Shown: piece after piece, positions 55,928-64,000 of the stretch | Numbering within the stretch: position 1 is the first letter of the stretch | Layout: each line of letters starts with the position of its first letter | Assembly: GCA_022844475.1 (NCBI GenBank) | Contig: JALHLR010000018.1 | Coordinates: 1 to 64,000, forward strand | Length of the DNA: 64,000 bases | From: Hyphomonadaceae bacterium | GTDB taxonomy: Bacteria; Pseudomonadota; Alphaproteobacteria; Caulobacterales; Hyphomonadaceae | Direction: 5' to 3' | The notes under the pieces: generated by a model | Databases searched by the model: none | Seen by the model: only the letters and a program-made list of their open reading frames with translations | What the model was told of the DNA's origin: nothing | Made by a program: the position numbers and the translations under genes

Positions 55928-56296
55928 CTACTGCCAGTAGCGCGGGGCCTTGTAGTAGTCGTACACCTCGTCGCGTAGCGCGCTGTTGCCGTCGCCACGG
56001 GTCAGCTCATTGATGCCATCGGACGGTGCGGCCTGGAGCTGTTCCTTTGTCATGTTCACCACATACCCGTCGTGACCTTTCTGGTAGTCGAGTGTTGACC
56101 ACGGGAGCGGGTGGAATTTTTCGTTCATGCCCAGGAAGCCGCCGAAGCCGACGACCGCGAACATGATGTTGTTGGAGGTCTTGTCGAGAACCACGTCCTC
56201 GACCTTGCCGATCTTGTCTCCGGACGGATTGTAGACGCTCGTGCCGATGACCTTGGTGGCGCGGATCGCGCCGGTGTGGCCTGTTGTCATTGCCAT
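55928..56296 (-). CDS. PRC-barrel domain protein
   Basis: VIGTSVYNPSGDKIGKVEDVVLDKTSNNIMFAVVGFGGFLGMNEKFHPLPW. Confidence 0.92.
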   Translation of the reverse strand: MAMTTGHTGAIRATKVIGTSVYNPSGDKIGKVEDVVLDKTSNNIMFAVVGFGGFLGMNEKFHPLPWSTLDYQKGHDGYVVNMTKEQLQAAPSDGINELTRGDGNSALRDEVYDYYKAPRYWQ

Positions 56297-56331
56297 GGTA
56301 TTTCCTTTCGGGCTGGGGATTGCCGAGACAG

Positions 56332-56356
56332 AACGTGGCAGTCTTCCATCGGTTGC
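56332..56356 (-). promoter_or_regulatory. Weak EcfG-like promoter candidate for PRC-barrel gene
   Basis: On minus strand GCAAC-N16-CGTT, one mismatch to GGAAC-N16-CGTT, 36 nt upstream of the ATG. Confidence 0.35.
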
Positions 56357-56511
56357 GTGGCGTTCAGATTTTCAGTGCAGACGGTCGCCGATCGCCTTCG
56401 GCGCTTGAAGCAGGACAGGCGTCGGGCTCGGCCAAGGTGTGGCTTGGGTCGGGAAACGGCCGGCCGTCATGGCGCATGGCTTGCACCCCGCGAGCGATGG
56501 CCCCGGAAACC

Positions 56512-57438
56512 ATGTCTTCAGAGCCAGTTCGCGACGTATCTGTTCGCGATGTGGATGTGTGCGTGTGCACCTTCCGCAGGCCTTCGGTCGCGCGTCTGCT
56601 GGCTTCGCTCGCCAGGCAGGAGTTACCTGTCGCAACGCGGCTGAGGGTGATCGTCGCCGACAATGATGATGTCGCCTCCGGCCGAGAAACAGTACTTCGC
56701 GCGTTTGCCGAACTGGGACTCGAGGGCGTTTACCTTCATGCCCCCGCGCGGAATATCTCGGTCGCACGCAATGCCTGCCTCAACGCGGCGCGAGCAACAC
56801 TGATTGCGTTCATCGACGACGATGAAGTTGCGCAGCCCGACTGGCTCGCCTGCCTCGTCTCGGAACTGGACCGGACACGGGCGGATGTCGTGTTCGGCAA
56901 GGTTAACGCGACTTACGACGTGGATGCGCCAGGCTGGATGCGGCGCGCGGATCTTCATTCGACGCCCGCCCCGCTCAGGCGTGGCAAGATCGAAGGAGGG
57001 TACACCTGCAACGTCCTGATGAAGCGCAAGGCCATCGGCGCATTCAGGTTTGACCCCTCGTTCGGGCGCAGTGGCGGGGAAGACACCGCCTTTTTCACCA
57101 TGCTGGCGCGTGCGGGCGCGGCGATGGCGTACACGCCGTCCGCGATTGTCGTGGAGCCGGTGTCGCGTGGCCGGGCGAACCTCAGATGGTTGACGACGCG
57201 GTCTTACCGGGCGGGCCAGACCTACGGTCTGCTGCGCCTGCGCGAGGGGGAGGCGAGCACAGCCGTTGGCGTGCTCTCGCTTGCAAAGGTGGCATGGTGC
57301 CTTGTGGTCATGGGGCTGACGATCTGGTCGCCAGTGCGCTGGCGCCGCGCAGCGGTACGCGCACACCTCCATGCCGGCGTGCTGGGAGCTGCCCTGGGGC
57401 GCGCGCCCATCGAACTCTATGGAGTCGCGCGTGGCTGA
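56512..57438 (+). CDS. Family 2 glycosyltransferase
   Basis: VDVCVCTFRRPSVARLLASLARQ, VIVADNDD, ISVARNACLNAARATLIAFIDDDE. Confidence 0.9.
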   Translation: MSSEPVRDVSVRDVDVCVCTFRRPSVARLLASLARQELPVATRLRVIVADNDDVASGRETVLRAFAELGLEGVYLHAPARNISVARNACLNAARATLIAFIDDDEVAQPDWLACLVSELDRTRADVVFGKVNATYDVDAPGWMRRADLHSTPAPLRRGKIEGGYTCNVLMKRKAIGAFRFDPSFGRSGGEDTAFFTMLARAGAAMAYTPSAIVVEPVSRGRANLRWLTTRSYRAGQTYGLLRLREGEASTAVGVLSLAKVAWCLVVMGLTIWSPVRWRRAAVRAHLHAGVLGAALGRAPIELYGVARG

Positions 57439-58495
57439 CACAGGGATGCACCTGCCTCTGCTACTGGACCGGCCGGCACGCAAGAATGAGCTGGCGGGTG
57501 GGCGAAGCATTGGCGCGGCGAGGGGTGAAGACGTTGTCGTCGTGATCCCCACGCTGAATGAAGGCCGGCATATCGAGACATGCGTGCGCTCGTTGATGAC
57601 AGGTGATGCACGGCTGAAGCGGGTCGAGATGATTGTTGCCGATGGCGGCAGCCGCGACTGGACGCGGGCCGTGGTGGAAATGCTGCAGGAGGAGTTTCCC
57701 AACCTGCGCCTGCTGCACAATCCAAGGCGGCTGCAGTCGGCGGCGGTGAACGCGGCTGCGCGCGGCGCGGGTATTGGCCGGCGTATACTTGTCAGGTGCG
57801 ATGCACACGCGATCTATCCGCCGAATTATGTGATGGAGGCGGCGGACTCGCTTGCGCGACGCACCGTGGCGTCAGTTGTCGTGCCGATGGATGCGGATGG
57901 CACAAGCTGCTTCCAGAAAGCCAATGCATGGATCGTCGACACGCCGCTGGGCTCGGGAGGATCGGCGCATCGCGGCGGACGCAGGTCGGGCTTTGTCGAT
58001 CACGGCCACCACGCTGCCTTTGACCTCAAGACCTTCCTGCACGTGGGGGGCTATGACGAGACATTCTCGCACAACGAGGATGCTGAGTTCGACGCACGCC
58101 TGAGGAAGGCTGGCGGCCGCATCTTCATGGACGCTGATATCCGGGTGACCTACCTGCCGCGTGCGACGGTCGGCGCGCTGGCGCGGCAATACTACAGTTA
58201 TGGCCGCGGCCGCGCCCGCACACTGCTGAAGCATGGTGAACGGCCAAAGCTGCGCCAGCTGATCCCGCCGATGACCCTGATCGGGTGTCTGGCTGGATTT
58301 GCGCTGGCGCCTCTCACGCCATGGACCCTCCTCGCGCCGGCGAGCTATCTGGTTGCCCTTACGGGCGCATCGCTCGTCGTGGCGGTGCAGCGCATGTCGC
58401 TGTGCGGGCTGTTGGCAGGCCTGGCGTCTGGTGTGATGCACATGAGCTGGTCGGCGGGGCTGTTGCGGCAGCTGCTTGCTGGCCGCTCTTCCTGA
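57419..58495 (+). CDS. Family 2 glycosyltransferase, succinoglycan ExoA-like
   Basis: VVVVIPTLNEGRHIETCVRSLM, VADGGSRDWTRAVV, FSHNEDAEFDARLRKAGGRIFMD. Confidence 0.9.
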   Translation: MESRVADTGMHLPLLLDRPARKNELAGGRSIGAARGEDVVVVIPTLNEGRHIETCVRSLMTGDARLKRVEMIVADGGSRDWTRAVVEMLQEEFPNLRLLHNPRRLQSAAVNAAARGAGIGRRILVRCDAHAIYPPNYVMEAADSLARRTVASVVVPMDADGTSCFQKANAWIVDTPLGSGGSAHRGGRRSGFVDHGHHAAFDLKTFLHVGGYDETFSHNEDAEFDARLRKAGGRIFMDADIRVTYLPRATVGALARQYYSYGRGRARTLLKHGERPKLRQLIPPMTLIGCLAGFALAPLTPWTLLAPASYLVALTGASLVVAVQRMSLCGLLAGLASGVMHMSWSAGLLRQLLAGRSS

Positions 58496-58559: not shown

Positions 58560-58654
58560 CAGTCATCTGGCGGGCTAAGCGCCGGACCATTTTCGACATT
58601 TCGTTACCGTTCATACCGTGGCAGCCGACTGCCGCGCGCGAGGCAAGACGTTGC

Positions 58655-58849
58655 ATGTCCTACACCCCCGGACCGACGCCCAGCCTGCAGGAAGCCAGGT
58701 TTCGGCAGAGATGCATCGGCAAGGCGATGAGCCAGCTGTCCGCGCGGCTGACAAGCGAAGAGCCTCCAGAGGAGCTTCTGAGCCTGCTGGCGCTGGCGGA
58801 CGTGAGACAGCAGGCGAGGCAAGGGCCGAGCCAAATGGCGCTCCGGTAG
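58655..58849 (+). CDS. nepR: NepR-like anti-sigma factor
   Basis: 64 aa; FRQRCIGKAMSQLSARLTSEEPPEELLSLLALAD resembles the NepR core; directly upstream of an EcfG-type sigma. Confidence 0.75.
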   Translation: MSYTPGPTPSLQEARFRQRCIGKAMSQLSARLTSEEPPEELLSLLALADVRQQARQGPSQMALR

Positions 58850-59451
58850 ACGACGCAGACTTCAAGTCCCAGCTGGTCGCCCTGATCCCCCATCTGCGCG
58901 CGTTTGCTTTCAGCATGACGCACCGCCCGGAGGCCGAAGACCTCGCGCAGGAAACGATGATCAAGGCCTGGCGTGCGCGCGGCAGCTATCAGGCCGGCAC
59001 CAACTTCAAGGCGTGGCTGTTCACGATCCTGCGCAACGAACACTATTCCCGCGCGCGCCGCTCCTGGCGAAGCGTTTCGCTCGATCCCGGCGTCGCCGAA
59101 AGCACGCTGGTCGTCTCCGACGATCCCTCGGTCCGCGAGGAATTGCTTGATGTGCGGAACGCCATGCAACTGCTCTCGTTCGACCAGCGGCAGGCGCTCG
59201 TTCTGGTAACGGCGGCAGGGCTTTCCTACGCGGATACCGCGGCGATCTGCGGCTGTGCGATCGGGACGGTAAAGAGCCGGGTCAATCGTGCGCGGGCCGA
59301 ACTGGTCGGGATCCTGGAGCGTCAAAGCGGAAAGCAGCGGGCGCAGTCCGACATCCTGGCATCGACGGCGTTCAGCACAATCATGACGGAAGCTGCAGCC
59401 ATGCAGGTCCAGCCTGCGACGGAGACTATGGGTACCGTCAGGTCGGCATGA
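58711..59451 (+). CDS. ecfG: EcfG-family general stress response ECF sigma factor (start uncertain)
   Basis: LVALIPHLRAFAFSMTHRPEAEDLAQETMIKAW, NFKAWLFTILRNEHYSRARRSWR, AAICGCAIGTVKSRVNRARAEL; ORF open from 58618, sigma domain begins about 58853. Confidence 0.85.
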   Translation: MHRQGDEPAVRAADKRRASRGASEPAGAGGRETAGEARAEPNGAPVDDADFKSQLVALIPHLRAFAFSMTHRPEAEDLAQETMIKAWRARGSYQAGTNFKAWLFTILRNEHYSRARRSWRSVSLDPGVAESTLVVSDDPSVREELLDVRNAMQLLSFDQRQALVLVTAAGLSYADTAAICGCAIGTVKSRVNRARAELVGILERQSGKQRAQSDILASTAFSTIMTEAAAMQVQPATETMGTVRSA

Positions 59452-59498
59452 CCGCTTGCAAAGCGCTGGTCAGGCGGCGGGCGCCCGCAGGCGGCAAG

Positions 59499-59801
59499 TC
59501 AAGCTTTCCGAGCTGAAATCAGGTTCGACCGCGCCGCAAACGCAACACCTGGATCTGGCGTGATCCGGAAGGATCCGAAACCGGATCGCTCTGGCGTGGC
59601 GCAAGCCCCGCCGGAGCGTTCACGCCAGACCAGATCGAGGTGGCCGCCAGCGCTGAGTCACTCGATTTCAAACGAGCCGCGCTGGATCGAGGGAGCATCA
59701 TACCTGGCTGCGTTGGTGGCAAGCTCGTGGAGGGCGAGGGTGATGGCGTGCGCACGGCGGCCGTCGAGGGCGAGAACGTTCGCCGGCGCGCGGTAGCGCA
59801 T
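59499..59801 (-). pseudogene. Decayed HWE/HisKA_2-type sensor histidine kinase (HATPase fragment)
   Basis: Minus-strand translation from 59801: MRYRAPANVLALDGRRAHAITLALHELATNAARYDAPSIQRGSFEIE*LSAGGHLDLVWRERSGGACATPERSGFGSFRITP; in-frame TGA at 59658-59660; in-frame stop also upstream. Confidence 0.7.
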
Positions 59802-60006
59802 TGTCCGCGTCAAGATCGCTGACCGGCTCGTCCATCAGTTCAAGGGTTTCGTGGCTCAGAACGTGTGTTCCCGCGCATCAGGCATGCAGCTGGCGCCAGT
59901 TGTCCGGGGCCTGACCTGTACGGCAACTGGAACTCCCGTCCGACTGACGATTGCACCTGTGTCCGGCGCCACGCACGCGACCGGTCGCCTGACGCAGCAC
60001 GGGACG

Positions 60007-60375
60007 TCAGAATGAGGAACTGCGCCGCTCGCCGACCTTGTTCAGGGCGCGCTCATACATCATGGCGACAAGCTGATCTGCGGCCTTCCCGTTCATGTCG
60101 ACCCGGGTCGCGAGATTGTGGTCCTTCAGCACCTTCTTGAGCTGGGCGAGCTTCATCGAGCCGAACACGGCGAAAAACTGCGCCTTGGTCGCTGAAGCGG
60201 CGAGGGCATAGGGGTTGGCGACATCAGCCCTGGTCTCATCCTCGAACACCACATTGCCGCCAAGCGCCTTGACCAGCCTGGCTGCTAGGGCCGGGTTGGA
60301 ACGTACTTCGGCGCGAAGCTCGTCGAAGAAACGGTCGATGTATTCGACGGGCGTCAGTCCCGGACCTTGTGCCAT
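60007..60375 (-). CDS. Hypothetical small protein overlapping the ParA-like gene
   Basis: 122 aa MAQGPGLTPVEYIDRFFDELRAEVRS...; start overlaps parA-like 3' end by 22 nt. Confidence 0.7.
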   Translation of the reverse strand: MAQGPGLTPVEYIDRFFDELRAEVRSNPALAARLVKALGGNVVFEDETRADVANPYALAASATKAQFFAVFGSMKLAQLKKVLKDHNLATRVDMNGKAADQLVAMMYERALNKVGERRSSSF

Positions 60376-61274
60376 GAGATCCCTGTCTGCTGAGTCATGA
60401 AGTCGGAAAAACGTTCGGATAGCCGCCGCACATCGCCCGTGACGCCAGCGTATTTGCCGCGGAAGGTGTTGTAGCTGTCGAGAGCTGCACGATCCATCGC
60501 ATTCAGGACATGCACGGATTCGGGAATGGTGGGGCCGAACCAGCGGTCCTTGAGATAGATGTCGCGCAGGTCGGACGCGACCTGGCGCGCATACTTGGTA
60601 TCGCGGAAGCGCGTGATCAGTACGAAGTTGCGGCTCGCCAGGTCTGGCGCGATGAATTTGCCGACCCAGTCGGAGAACTGCTTCGTTCCCCATGTCGAGA
60701 CCGAGTCGGCGATGGTCGGCGTCACATAGGCGTCGGCGAGCGCAAGGCCGGCCCGCGCCAGAGGCGACAGGTGCGGCGGGCAGTCGATCAGGATGATGTC
60801 GTAGAGAGACTGCAGCGGTTCAAAGGCTTTGCGATAATGCTCGGCCAGCGCATCTGCCAGCGTGGTCGGCGTGCCTGCGCGGCCATACCATTCTTCCTCG
60901 AGGCTGAGTTCACGCAGGCGCAGATGAGGATGCGAGGGCAGGCTGGAAATCCAGCCGAGCCGGACGTCCTGCTCCTCGGCAAGGCGTAGCTCCTCCAGTG
61001 TGACGGCGTTGGGCATGATGTAGGGCGCAGCCGAGGGCGGCTTGCCGGCCATGAAGCTGGCGAGAAGGTGGTGCGTGCCCTTGCCCTGGTCGGACGCCGC
61101 CTGGACGCCCATCTCGGTGAGCAGCATCTGGCTGGAATTCGCCTGCGGATCGAGATCGATCACGAGCACGCTCATGCCATAGTAATAGGCCAGCCCGTCG
61201 GCCAGCATTACGGTCGTCGTGGATTTGCCGACCCCGCCCTTGAGATTGGCGATCGCAGCGGTGAGTGCGGCCAT
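60354..61274 (-). CDS. ParA/MinD-family ATPase, orphan (no ParB in window)
   Basis: AIANLKGGVGKSTTTVMLADGLA deviant Walker A, VLVIDLDPQANSSQMLL, IILIDCPPHLSPL. Confidence 0.92.
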   Translation of the reverse strand: MAALTAAIANLKGGVGKSTTTVMLADGLAYYYGMSVLVIDLDPQANSSQMLLTEMGVQAASDQGKGTHHLLASFMAGKPPSAAPYIMPNAVTLEELRLAEEQDVRLGWISSLPSHPHLRLRELSLEEEWYGRAGTPTTLADALAEHYRKAFEPLQSLYDIILIDCPPHLSPLARAGLALADAYVTPTIADSVSTWGTKQFSDWVGKFIAPDLASRNFVLITRFRDTKYARQVASDLRDIYLKDRWFGPTIPESVHVLNAMDRAALDSYNTFRGKYAGVTGDVRRLSERFSDFMTQQTGISWHKVRD

Positions 61275-61367
61275 ACGAGCATGTTCCCCGATATCCGCTA
61301 ACCTTAGAGTGATTTTTGAGGATGTCTCCCCGCAAGCCCGCGCGGGCAGGTCGCCCCTCAGGATGCG

Positions 61368-62606
61368 CTATTCTGCAGCTTGTGGCGGGGTGATCCGGCC
61401 CAGGGCCCGAGTTTCCTCCACGTTCGTACGCCCCAGCGCCCGATCGATCAGGCCGCCGAGTTCTCCACGCGGAGCCACAAGGGTGGATTCGGGCAGGTTG
61501 AGCAGGCGCTTGCGGCGAACGGCGACGGGCGATCCGTTGGCGGCAAGGCTGAGGATCAGCGCCGGCAGGGTGGTGGCAAGGCTTTCCGGCAGGGTGAAGC
61601 CTACATCCCGCGCTTCGATCCAGCTCGCGGTTTGCGTGCCCGCGGGCGCGATGGCCGGCACGCCATAGTATCCGCCTTCGTAGATGCGGTTTGGCAGGAG
61701 CCAGGCGGAGTTGAAGCCCGCCTCCATGAAGTCGCCAGCCCAAACGACATCGAGCCCGGAATAGATGTTCGACAGGTCTTCGGGCGAGCGGTAGCGGCCA
61801 TGGAAGGTCAGGTTCGCGACGCCCTTGATCCGCGCGTGGAAGTCCGGAATCTCAGTCAGCGCCGGAACACCGTGGAGGTGGATATGAACCTTCGCTCCAG
61901 CCTCGCGCGCCGTGTTCAGGAGCAGGTCCAGCGAGCGACGGCAGCGAAGCACGCCGACCCAGCCCAGTTGCAGGGGGCCGGTCCGGAGGTCCGTCCTGGA
62001 GGGTCGGGGCCCATAGTCCGCGCCAGCGGCGAGACGGTTTTCCAGAACAAAAGGGACGTAACGTCCGTGATGATGCAGATCGAAGTGGTTGCGGAGGAAG
62101 CCGGGGGAGGAAACCACCAGCGCGCGCGTGCGTGCCAGCAGCGCGCCTTCAAGCCTGCGAAAGGCGAGGCCGAGCATGTCCTTCCGGGTCAGCAGGCGAT
62201 GGACGTCCAGCGCTTCGTAGATGACTGGCGTGTCCAGGCCTGCGATGCGCCGGGCGCGGAAGGCCGTCGCAAGCATGTCGAGGTTGCGCGCGTAGATGAC
62301 GTCAGCCTGCGCCAGGAGATCAGGCTGCCCCGCCGCGAGCCGCGCCCCGCGAAAGATTGACCTGATCCGCTGCAGGTAGGCCGCGTCATAGGTTCGACCA
62401 AGGTCTACATTGTCCCAGTCGACTTCAACCTGATCGCGGCGCCGCATGGTGAATCCGGTTACCTTCAGACCATCATCGCGGAATCCCTGTACCCGTCGGC
62501 GCACTGCGGCGTCGGCGGCGTCCTGAGCGAAGAAGGCGACGTGCGTCATGAGGTCGACAGGTGCAAGCTGCGCGCCTGTCACCCTGTAGAAATGTTGTGT
62601 AGTCAC
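61368..62606 (-). CDS. Glycosyltransferase (GT4-like fold)
   Basis: Likely GTG start at 62606; YEALDVHRLLTRKDMLG, PLQLGWVGVLRCRRSLDLLL, GGYYGVPAIAPAGT. Confidence 0.8.
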   Translation of the reverse strand: MTTQHFYRVTGAQLAPVDLMTHVAFFAQDAADAAVRRRVQGFRDDGLKVTGFTMRRRDQVEVDWDNVDLGRTYDAAYLQRIRSIFRGARLAAGQPDLLAQADVIYARNLDMLATAFRARRIAGLDTPVIYEALDVHRLLTRKDMLGLAFRRLEGALLARTRALVVSSPGFLRNHFDLHHHGRYVPFVLENRLAAGADYGPRPSRTDLRTGPLQLGWVGVLRCRRSLDLLLNTAREAGAKVHIHLHGVPALTEIPDFHARIKGVANLTFHGRYRSPEDLSNIYSGLDVVWAGDFMEAGFNSAWLLPNRIYEGGYYGVPAIAPAGTQTASWIEARDVGFTLPESLATTLPALILSLAANGSPVAVRRKRLLNLPESTLVAPRGELGGLIDRALGRTNVEETRALGRITPPQAAE

Positions 62607-62715: not shown

Positions 62716-63642
62716 TTGAAGTTTCCGCCCCTCCGATTGCGGGAAAGGCTGGAAGCCGCGCGCGATTGGGCGCGACTGGCCTGGGACAGGTGCGTGCGGT
62801 TCGTGGCGGGGGTTGGTTCTGCGGGATCGGTCGACCCGGGCGCTAAAATCGTGTCTTTTGAGGGGCCTGCGGCCATTGTCCCTGAAGGGCGTCGCATCTA
62901 TGCGGTCGGCGATATTCACGGCCGTGCCGACCTGCTGGAGAAGCTTCTCGGGATAATCCGTGCCGACGCGCTGGGAGAACCGGCCAGGGAAAAGCCGATC
63001 CTGATTTTCCTCGGCGATTACATCGACCGCGGTTTCCAGTCGAAGGAGGTGATCGATCTCCTCATGGGCGATCTGGTGTCCCCATTCGAGACACATTTCC
63101 TGAAGGGTAACCATGAAGCGGCCATGCTGCAGTTTCTTGATGAACCCGCCATGGGGCCGCGCTGGGCGGAGTTTGGCGGAGCGGAAACGCTGGTTTCGTA
63201 CGGCGTGAGGCCGCCGCGATCACGGACGTCCCTCGATGGCTGGGCCATCGCCTCGGACCAGTTGAACAGCCTTCTGCCGTCCGCGCATCTGGCCTTCCTC
63301 AAGAACCTGCAGGTCAGTGTCCGCATCGGCGATTACATGTTCGTACATGCGGGCGTGCGACCAGGCGTGGATCTCGCCCGACAGTCCGAACAGGACATGC
63401 TGTGGATCCGCGAGGAGTTCCTGAACGACAAGCGCCCGCTCGGCGCAGTGGTGGTTCACGGTCACACCCCCACCACGCGCCCGCACCGGGATTCCAGACG
63501 GATCGGCATCGATACGGGCGCCTATCTCAGTGGCCGGCTGACGGCGGCCCGTTTTGAGCATGATGGCGTGGACTTCCTGTCGACTGGCCCTTCCGCAGAG
63601 CCGGCGACGGACACACCAACATACCAGGAGGTTCGCCGTTGA
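62716..63642 (+). CDS. Metallophosphoesterase, serine/threonine protein phosphatase-like
   Basis: YAVGDIHGRADLLEKLL, FLGDYIDRGFQSKEVIDLL, FLKGNHEAAML, VVVHGHTPT; TTG start. Confidence 0.9.
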   Translation: MKFPPLRLRERLEAARDWARLAWDRCVRFVAGVGSAGSVDPGAKIVSFEGPAAIVPEGRRIYAVGDIHGRADLLEKLLGIIRADALGEPAREKPILIFLGDYIDRGFQSKEVIDLLMGDLVSPFETHFLKGNHEAAMLQFLDEPAMGPRWAEFGGAETLVSYGVRPPRSRTSLDGWAIASDQLNSLLPSAHLAFLKNLQVSVRIGDYMFVHAGVRPGVDLARQSEQDMLWIREEFLNDKRPLGAVVVHGHTPTTRPHRDSRRIGIDTGAYLSGRLTAARFEHDGVDFLSTGPSAEPATDTPTYQEVRR

Positions 63643-64000
63643 ATCCCGTGAAGACCCTTGCTTTCATGCTTGTCGGCATCGTGGCCGTGCTGATTTCGGC
63701 GTGCGCATCAGGGCCCGCCAAGGGCGGCCCGGTTGATGCGGCGCCGGCAGGGCTGACAGGCTATCGGCTCGGCTCCGGCGACGAGATCAAGGTTACCGTA
63801 TATGGCGAGCCCGATCTCTCGGGCAATTTCGTCGTCGATGGCGAAGGCGAGATCGCGATGTCGCTGATCGGCCAGGCGCCCGTTGGCACTCTCACGCTCA
63901 CCGAGGCAAGCCAGAGCATCGAGGCGCGTCTGAAGGACGGCTATCTGCGCGATCCGAAGGTGACGGCCGAACTGGTGAAGGGGCGCCCGTACTACATTCT
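63639..64000 (+). CDS. Polysaccharide export protein (Wza/BexD family), truncated by window end
   Basis: TTG overlapping upstream stop; lipobox ISAC; GYRLGSGDEIKVTVYGEPDLSGNFVVDGEGEIAMSLIG. Confidence 0.88.
   Translation, partial: MNPVKTLAFMLVGIVAVLISACASGPAKGGPVDAAPAGLTGYRLGSGDEIKVTVYGEPDLSGNFVVDGEGEIAMSLIGQAPVGTLTLTEASQSIEARLKDGYLRDPKVTAELVKGRPYYI

Follow-up and report, generated by a model that had tools for sequence, protein, structure and literature searches.

Near its far end, the window analysed here (64,000 nucleotides of contig C18 from a Hyphomonadaceae genome that is an incomplete draft, 78% complete in 50 contigs) carries an exopolysaccharide (EPS) locus that includes a gene for a ParA-type ATPase and a small gene overlapping it (Table 1). 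A preliminary description had read a glycosyltransferase, a ParA-like ATPase with the motif KGGVGKST and a 122-aa gene, in this order on the minus strand and with a 22-nt overlap between the last two; coordinates and translations agree with this reading. The start of the glycosyltransferase is best placed at 62549 by comparison with the relative L002; the mechanical open reading frame extends to 62897. Profile matches likewise confirm that this set is divergent from a metallophosphatase-Wza operon, in which the end of the metallophosphatase gene overlaps the start of the Wza-type gene at 63639. Read to its full length, the latter carries SLBB, and past the window the operon continues with a BBP2_2 porin followed by a Wzc-like protein (Wzz+AAA_31). 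A sugar transferase also lies near the locus.

Two features set this copy of the locus apart from those of the relatives compared. At 61275-61367, between the glycosyltransferase and ParA, relatives carry a Wzy_C-type gene that is missing here, and the rest of the genome, 78% complete, yielded no copy. In addition, an ECF sigma factor gene not seen there in these relatives is inserted at 58618-59451. Since the EPS genes fall short of holdfast models (HfsE 131 of 750 bits; HfsG 22.6 of 500), we do not refer to the region as a holdfast locus.

Table 1. Features of the EPS locus, in window coordinates.
Feature	Position	Strand	Basis
ParA-type ATPase (P0002), 306 aa	60354..61274	-	ATG start; translation, AAA_31, PHROG
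Deviant Walker A motif KGGVGKST, ATPase residues 12-19	61218..61241	-	Translation
Partner protein (P0001), 122 aa	60007..60375	-	ATG start; translation
ATPase/partner gene overlap, exactly 22 nt	60354..60375	-	Coordinates and translations
Putative SAP/HeH-like helices in the partner, residues ~71-110	60046..60165	-	Sub-cut-off PF02037 match and AF2 helices
Glycosyltransferase upstream of ParA, 393 aa from conserved start	61368..62549	-	Glyco_trans_1_4, E 0.0012
Calcineurin-like metallophosphatase, divergent	62716..63642	+	PF00149, 4e-16
Wza-type polysaccharide export protein, runs beyond window end	63639..64000	+	PF02563 Poly_export, 1.7e-20
GT2 glycosyltransferase, cluster c6 of EPS locus	57371..58495	+	PF00535, 1.6e-16; syntenic in relatives
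GT2 glycosyltransferase, cluster c13	56284..57438	+	PF00535, 3.9e-19; syntenic in relatives

The ATPase and its small partner

By sequence and modelling, the ATPase is a ParA-type protein with a predicted ParA fold and intact active-site motifs. It matches AAA_31 above the Pfam cut-off (3.1e-26) and the ParA-like phrog_164 (1.2e-37), and its AF2 model (pLDDT 90) finds Soj (2bej, 1.4e-15) and McdA as best Foldseek matches. The KGGxxK[S/T] signature of ParA-type ATPases is present and intact in relatives; KGGVGKST and the other ATPase motifs are invariant across 25 ParAs of the EPS clade, a clade with tree support of 98/89. The protein scored under every NCBIfam equivalog cut-off, including those for BcsQ (TIGR03371, 41.5 bits against 157.85), MinD (TIGR01968, 25.1 bits against 212.9) and plasmid RepA. 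PF06564 exceeds its cut-off (30.8 over 21.3), yet is weaker than AAA_31. A role as a defence system was discarded, as the PADLOC matches are short and confined to the ATP-binding motif. For the sister group of the EPS clade (L116-L121), whose ParAs are about 40% identical to this one, no partner could be detected nearby.

The ATPase had been described as an orphan ParA. In line with this, the ParB_N profile has no match on contig C18 and two in the genome, on C7 and C25, and the canonical parA-parB pair lies on C7. No repeat array or parS-like cluster was seen near the pair, with only short two-copy repeats at 59400-61400, a search that a single unknown site would escape.

The 122-aa partner matches no curated family in any of the profile libraries searched (Pfam, NCBIfam, PHROG); the profile search proposed in the preliminary description hence returned no known unrelated domain. 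Its closest approach is to SAP (PF02037, E 0.0049), at 16.9 bits against a cut-off of 23.9. SAP/HeH/Rho_N-like matches (best E 0.0021) fall in the C-terminal part of 8 of the 22 partner homologs, and none was found in homologs linked to a glutathione-reductase-like gene (gor-linked, see below). The AF2 model, of moderate confidence (pLDDT 75), is all-helical, with an N-terminal helix from residue 9 and helices at 76-85 and 99-120, where SAP helices would be expected. The C-terminal half of the protein may be said to resemble SAP weakly. The model has no solved-fold match in Foldseek, and a search for direct PDB homology yielded nothing by sequence or by fold; matches to PF00588 and TIGR01198 were at chance level. 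Known ParA partners have a positively charged, disordered N-terminus, whereas residues 1-30 of this protein are net acidic (mean charge -3.6) and predicted helical. Its last 20 residues carry a mildly basic charge (+1.7) and form a low-confidence tail in the model. Literature searches returned no description of such a ParA/partner pair.

Co-inheritance and linkage to exopolysaccharide genes

We compared 105 genomes of the family Hyphomonadaceae, 36 of which (the window's own counted) carry an intact ParA ortholog. Both genes are present in 35 genomes, ParA alone in one, the partner alone in none and neither in 69 (Fisher 4e-27, a value that, like the other Fisher values given here, overstates the evidence because genomes share ancestry and are not independent). 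The sole ParA-only genome, G024, belongs to genus g3, and a partner was not detectable in it. The pair does not represent chance open reading frames, because ParA is 59-91% identical to the window's ATPase across eight genera and the 22-nt overlap recurs, being present in every adjacent copy read from six genera (g1, g4, g6, g7, g9, g10). A 5-nt gap separates the genes in genus g2. In genus g3 they lie 6-40 kb apart where they share a contig, and both are nevertheless kept in 14 of 15 genomes; for this genus alone, 14 genomes have both genes, one ParA only, none the partner only and 14 neither (Fisher 2e-7). This within-genus contrast, together with the rearrangements, is better evidence than the family-wide tests. 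The data support ParA and partner as a real co-inherited two-gene module, as the preliminary description had proposed.

The same description had called for the pair's co-occurrence with EPS loci to be examined across genomes. ParA and the BBP2_2 porin share a contig in 29 genomes, and in all 29 they lie within 18.2 kb of each other (median 6.3 kb). The pair is present in 35 of 85 porin-bearing genomes and 1 of 20 porin-less genomes (Fisher 0.0015), the latter being the 80% complete G089. Within genus g3, ParA tracks the EPS porin: 15 genomes have both, none ParA only, three the porin only and 11 neither (1e-5). Gene order in the EPS locus varies between genera, but the linkage of ParA persists through several rearrangements, and in several arrangements ParA adjoins or follows a Wzy_C gene. 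These observations support a module that is tied to the EPS locus across genera and inherited with it in many Hyphomonadaceae.

Shared ancestry alone might keep a pair with a housekeeping role unrelated to EPS in this locus. Such hitch-hiking would fit genus g10, where the pair lies on a different contig from the export genes and porin, and the gor-linked paralogous pairs, which exist in the same genome and show no EPS link. However, the tracking of the porin within genus g3, the survival of the linkage through several rearrangements and the scarcity of the pair among porin-less genomes render this explanation improbable.

The pair is, on the other hand, dispensable for the EPS locus. Genome G096, of the same genus, retains the entire syntenic locus, but ParA and partner are cleanly absent from the stretch between a glycosyltransferase and a Wzy-like gene (L134; G096:C8:12001-32000). 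In G103, ParA is decayed by three stops, and the decayed ParA and partner (L057:8528-9372; G103:C3) sit in an otherwise intact EPS locus. Genus g5 has the EPS porin in 40 of 42 genomes and lacks the pair. Given these losses from intact loci and export genes that occur without the pair, the module is an accessory and not a core part of the locus.

Paralogous and distant pairs

The window's genome encodes a second ParA with a 121-aa partner beside a glutathione-reductase-like gene (G000:C2, about 110870-112100; L109:4368-5601). This gor-linked arrangement is conserved in several Hyphomonadaceae and in several genera of f174, a different family within the order. In the gor-type module, ParA precedes a small partner that has a helix motif at its N-terminus and a related domain at its C-terminus, and the two genes often overlap by 4 nt. 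Because the neighbours of these paralogous pairs are other genes, EPS loci are not the only setting for this type of module. When the EPS partner profile was run across the class and the phylum, it hit only the window's own genome; 11 candidates were scored per genome in these runs, so that distant homologs were missed, as a gor-type partner profile later revealed. A further arrangement, without EPS linkage, is a three-gene set of a ~195-aa protein, ParA and partner (L053-L056; L053:38-1901, L055:4667-6539, L056:9634-11538), in which the ~195-aa protein has no Pfam or PADLOC match.

Three other alphaproteobacterial families and Methylocystis plasmids encode a ParA with an N-terminal HTH and a partner homolog, and a Rhizobium plasmid also gave a partner homolog match. 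On the Methylocystis plasmid pSS37A-Re-4 (L166:13955-16075), the HTH-fused ParA and partner homolog lie by a ubiquitin-like (E2/ThiF) set and a Fic gene. The window's partner itself has no match in plasmid records or viral contigs, and among plasmid ParAs the one closest to the window's ATPase shares 30% identity with it. A plasmid or phage origin of this clade's pair was rejected on these grounds, with plasmid ParAs at most ~30% identical.

The preliminary description had named residence of the pair mainly in partition loci with parB/parS as a finding that would speak against an EPS role. For this clade nothing of the kind emerged, as parB, a plasmid match to the partner and a close plasmid ParA are all lacking; the concern survives only in the distant HTH-ParA/partner pairs on a few plasmids. 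These distant and plasmid homologs and the SAP/HeH/Rho_N-like matches would suit a DNA-partition or DNA-tethering pair whose partner is a ParB-like adaptor with SAP-like DNA binding, the EPS locus being merely where the chromosomal copy sits. We regard this as quite improbable, given that the SAP matches are below cut-off and absent from gor-linked homologs, no repeat array or parS-like cluster was seen near the pair, plasmid records lack the window's partner, and the pair stays in the EPS locus despite changing gene order.

Comparison with known systems and candidate function

It is accepted practice to read the cargo of a ParA protein from its gene neighbourhood, and partners of orphan ParAs often go unidentified because they are so diverse (PMC10241942). 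The nearest functional precedent is BcsQ, a polar ParA/MinD homolog that is required, with the small protein BcsR, for cellulose secretion in E. coli; within cellulose synthase, BcsQ binds to the glycosyltransferase and PilZ parts, and BcsR is indispensable for secretion (PMC5727187). Like BcsQ/BcsR, the window's pair is encoded in an exopolysaccharide operon and consists of an ATPase of the ParA/MinD superfamily and a small protein encoded together with it. Unlike BcsQ, with its motif RGGVGTT (PMC9178275), the window's ATPase carries KGGVGKST and scores far short of the BcsQ model; the surrounding system is of the Wza/Wzc/Wzy type instead of a cellulose synthase, and no library match makes the partner BcsR-like. 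McdA/McdB similarly pairs an orphan ParA-type ATPase with a small adaptor in the operon of its cargo, and McdA ranks with the nearest solved structures, but its cargo is the carboxysome, its motif is SGGQGKT, and the partner has no McdB-like library match. The ATPase fails the sequence test for BcsQ, and the partner has no tie to BcsR or McdB; we therefore do not file the pair under either family, although it most likely works by analogy with one or the other.

Other comparisons are more distant. Soj of the ParABS (Soj-Spo0J) systems is closest to the ATPase in fold and sequence, but those systems involve ParB and parS, which have no counterpart seen at this locus, and the genome has its canonical parAB elsewhere. 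PpfA, ParC and other orphan ParAs share the location in the operon of a presumed cargo; there the cargo is chemotaxis arrays, and the partners are different. Wzc/CpsD BY-kinases are also P-loop ATPases of polysaccharide loci, and CpsD is ParA-like (PMC4574921), whereas the locus here has its own Wzc (Wzz+AAA_31) and a separate ParA that lacks a Wzz domain and falls in the ParA clade.

With moderate confidence, we interpret the pair as a ParA-type module on the chromosome that is dedicated to positioning or regulating the EPS machinery of the locus, i.e., Wza, the BBP2_2 porin, Wzc and the sugar transferase, and in relatives also Wzy. We base this on the co-inheritance, the overlap, the EPS linkage through rearrangements, the predicted ParA fold and motifs, and the BcsQ precedent. 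From these, we infer which cargo the module serves, that the partner and the ATPase interact physically, that a matrix is bound and that the effect is one of positioning. The ATPase would form ATP-dependent dimers on a matrix that is probably the nucleoid. The partner would attach to the dimer, stimulate its hydrolysis of ATP and connect the dimer with an EPS component. As a result, the machinery might be placed or shared out, for example to a pole or a new site, or its activity gated in time. Several observations sit uneasily with this interpretation: the G096 locus without the pair, the decayed ParA of G103 and the g5 porins without it, the g10 pair off the export-gene contig, the paralogous pairs linked to other genes, and the acidic, helical N-terminus of the partner, which differs from that of known partners.

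The main rival is that the pair positions nothing and regulates EPS synthesis directly, by assembling, stabilising or gating the synthase, the polymerase or Wzc, much as BcsQ/BcsR act inside the Bcs complex; DNA partition is less likely than this. Direct regulation draws on the same linkage and co-inheritance, on the Wzy_C genes that often adjoin ParA, and on the contacts of BcsQ with cellulose synthase parts and the essential role of BcsR (PMC5727187). We nevertheless consider it unlikely. The ATPase has a full ParA signature (KGGVGKS and switch motifs), unlike the RGGVGTT of BcsQ (PMC9178275), and a dynamic ATPase cycle is therefore expected; moreover, some intact loci lack the pair, which is therefore not a core subunit.

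Returning to a dedicated EPS module, we tentatively propose, as a possibility somewhat short of an even chance, that it belongs to a so far undescribed family of ParA modules, each of two genes, that occurs across alphaproteobacteria, with partners composed of an N-terminal helical and a SAP-like C-terminal domain, and that one clade was recruited to position Wzy/Wzc-type EPS machines. If this is true, the EPS-clade module would, as far as the literature searches show, be the first ParA system for Wzy/Wzc-type exopolysaccharide cargo. Stalked or budding forms with polar adhesins occur among the Hyphomonadaceae. With the partner family defined by co-inheritance and its cargo suggested by gene neighbourhood, the EPS-positioning hypothesis is directly testable in this family, for which the natural losses in G096 and G103 and the rearranged genus g3 offer ready-made comparisons.
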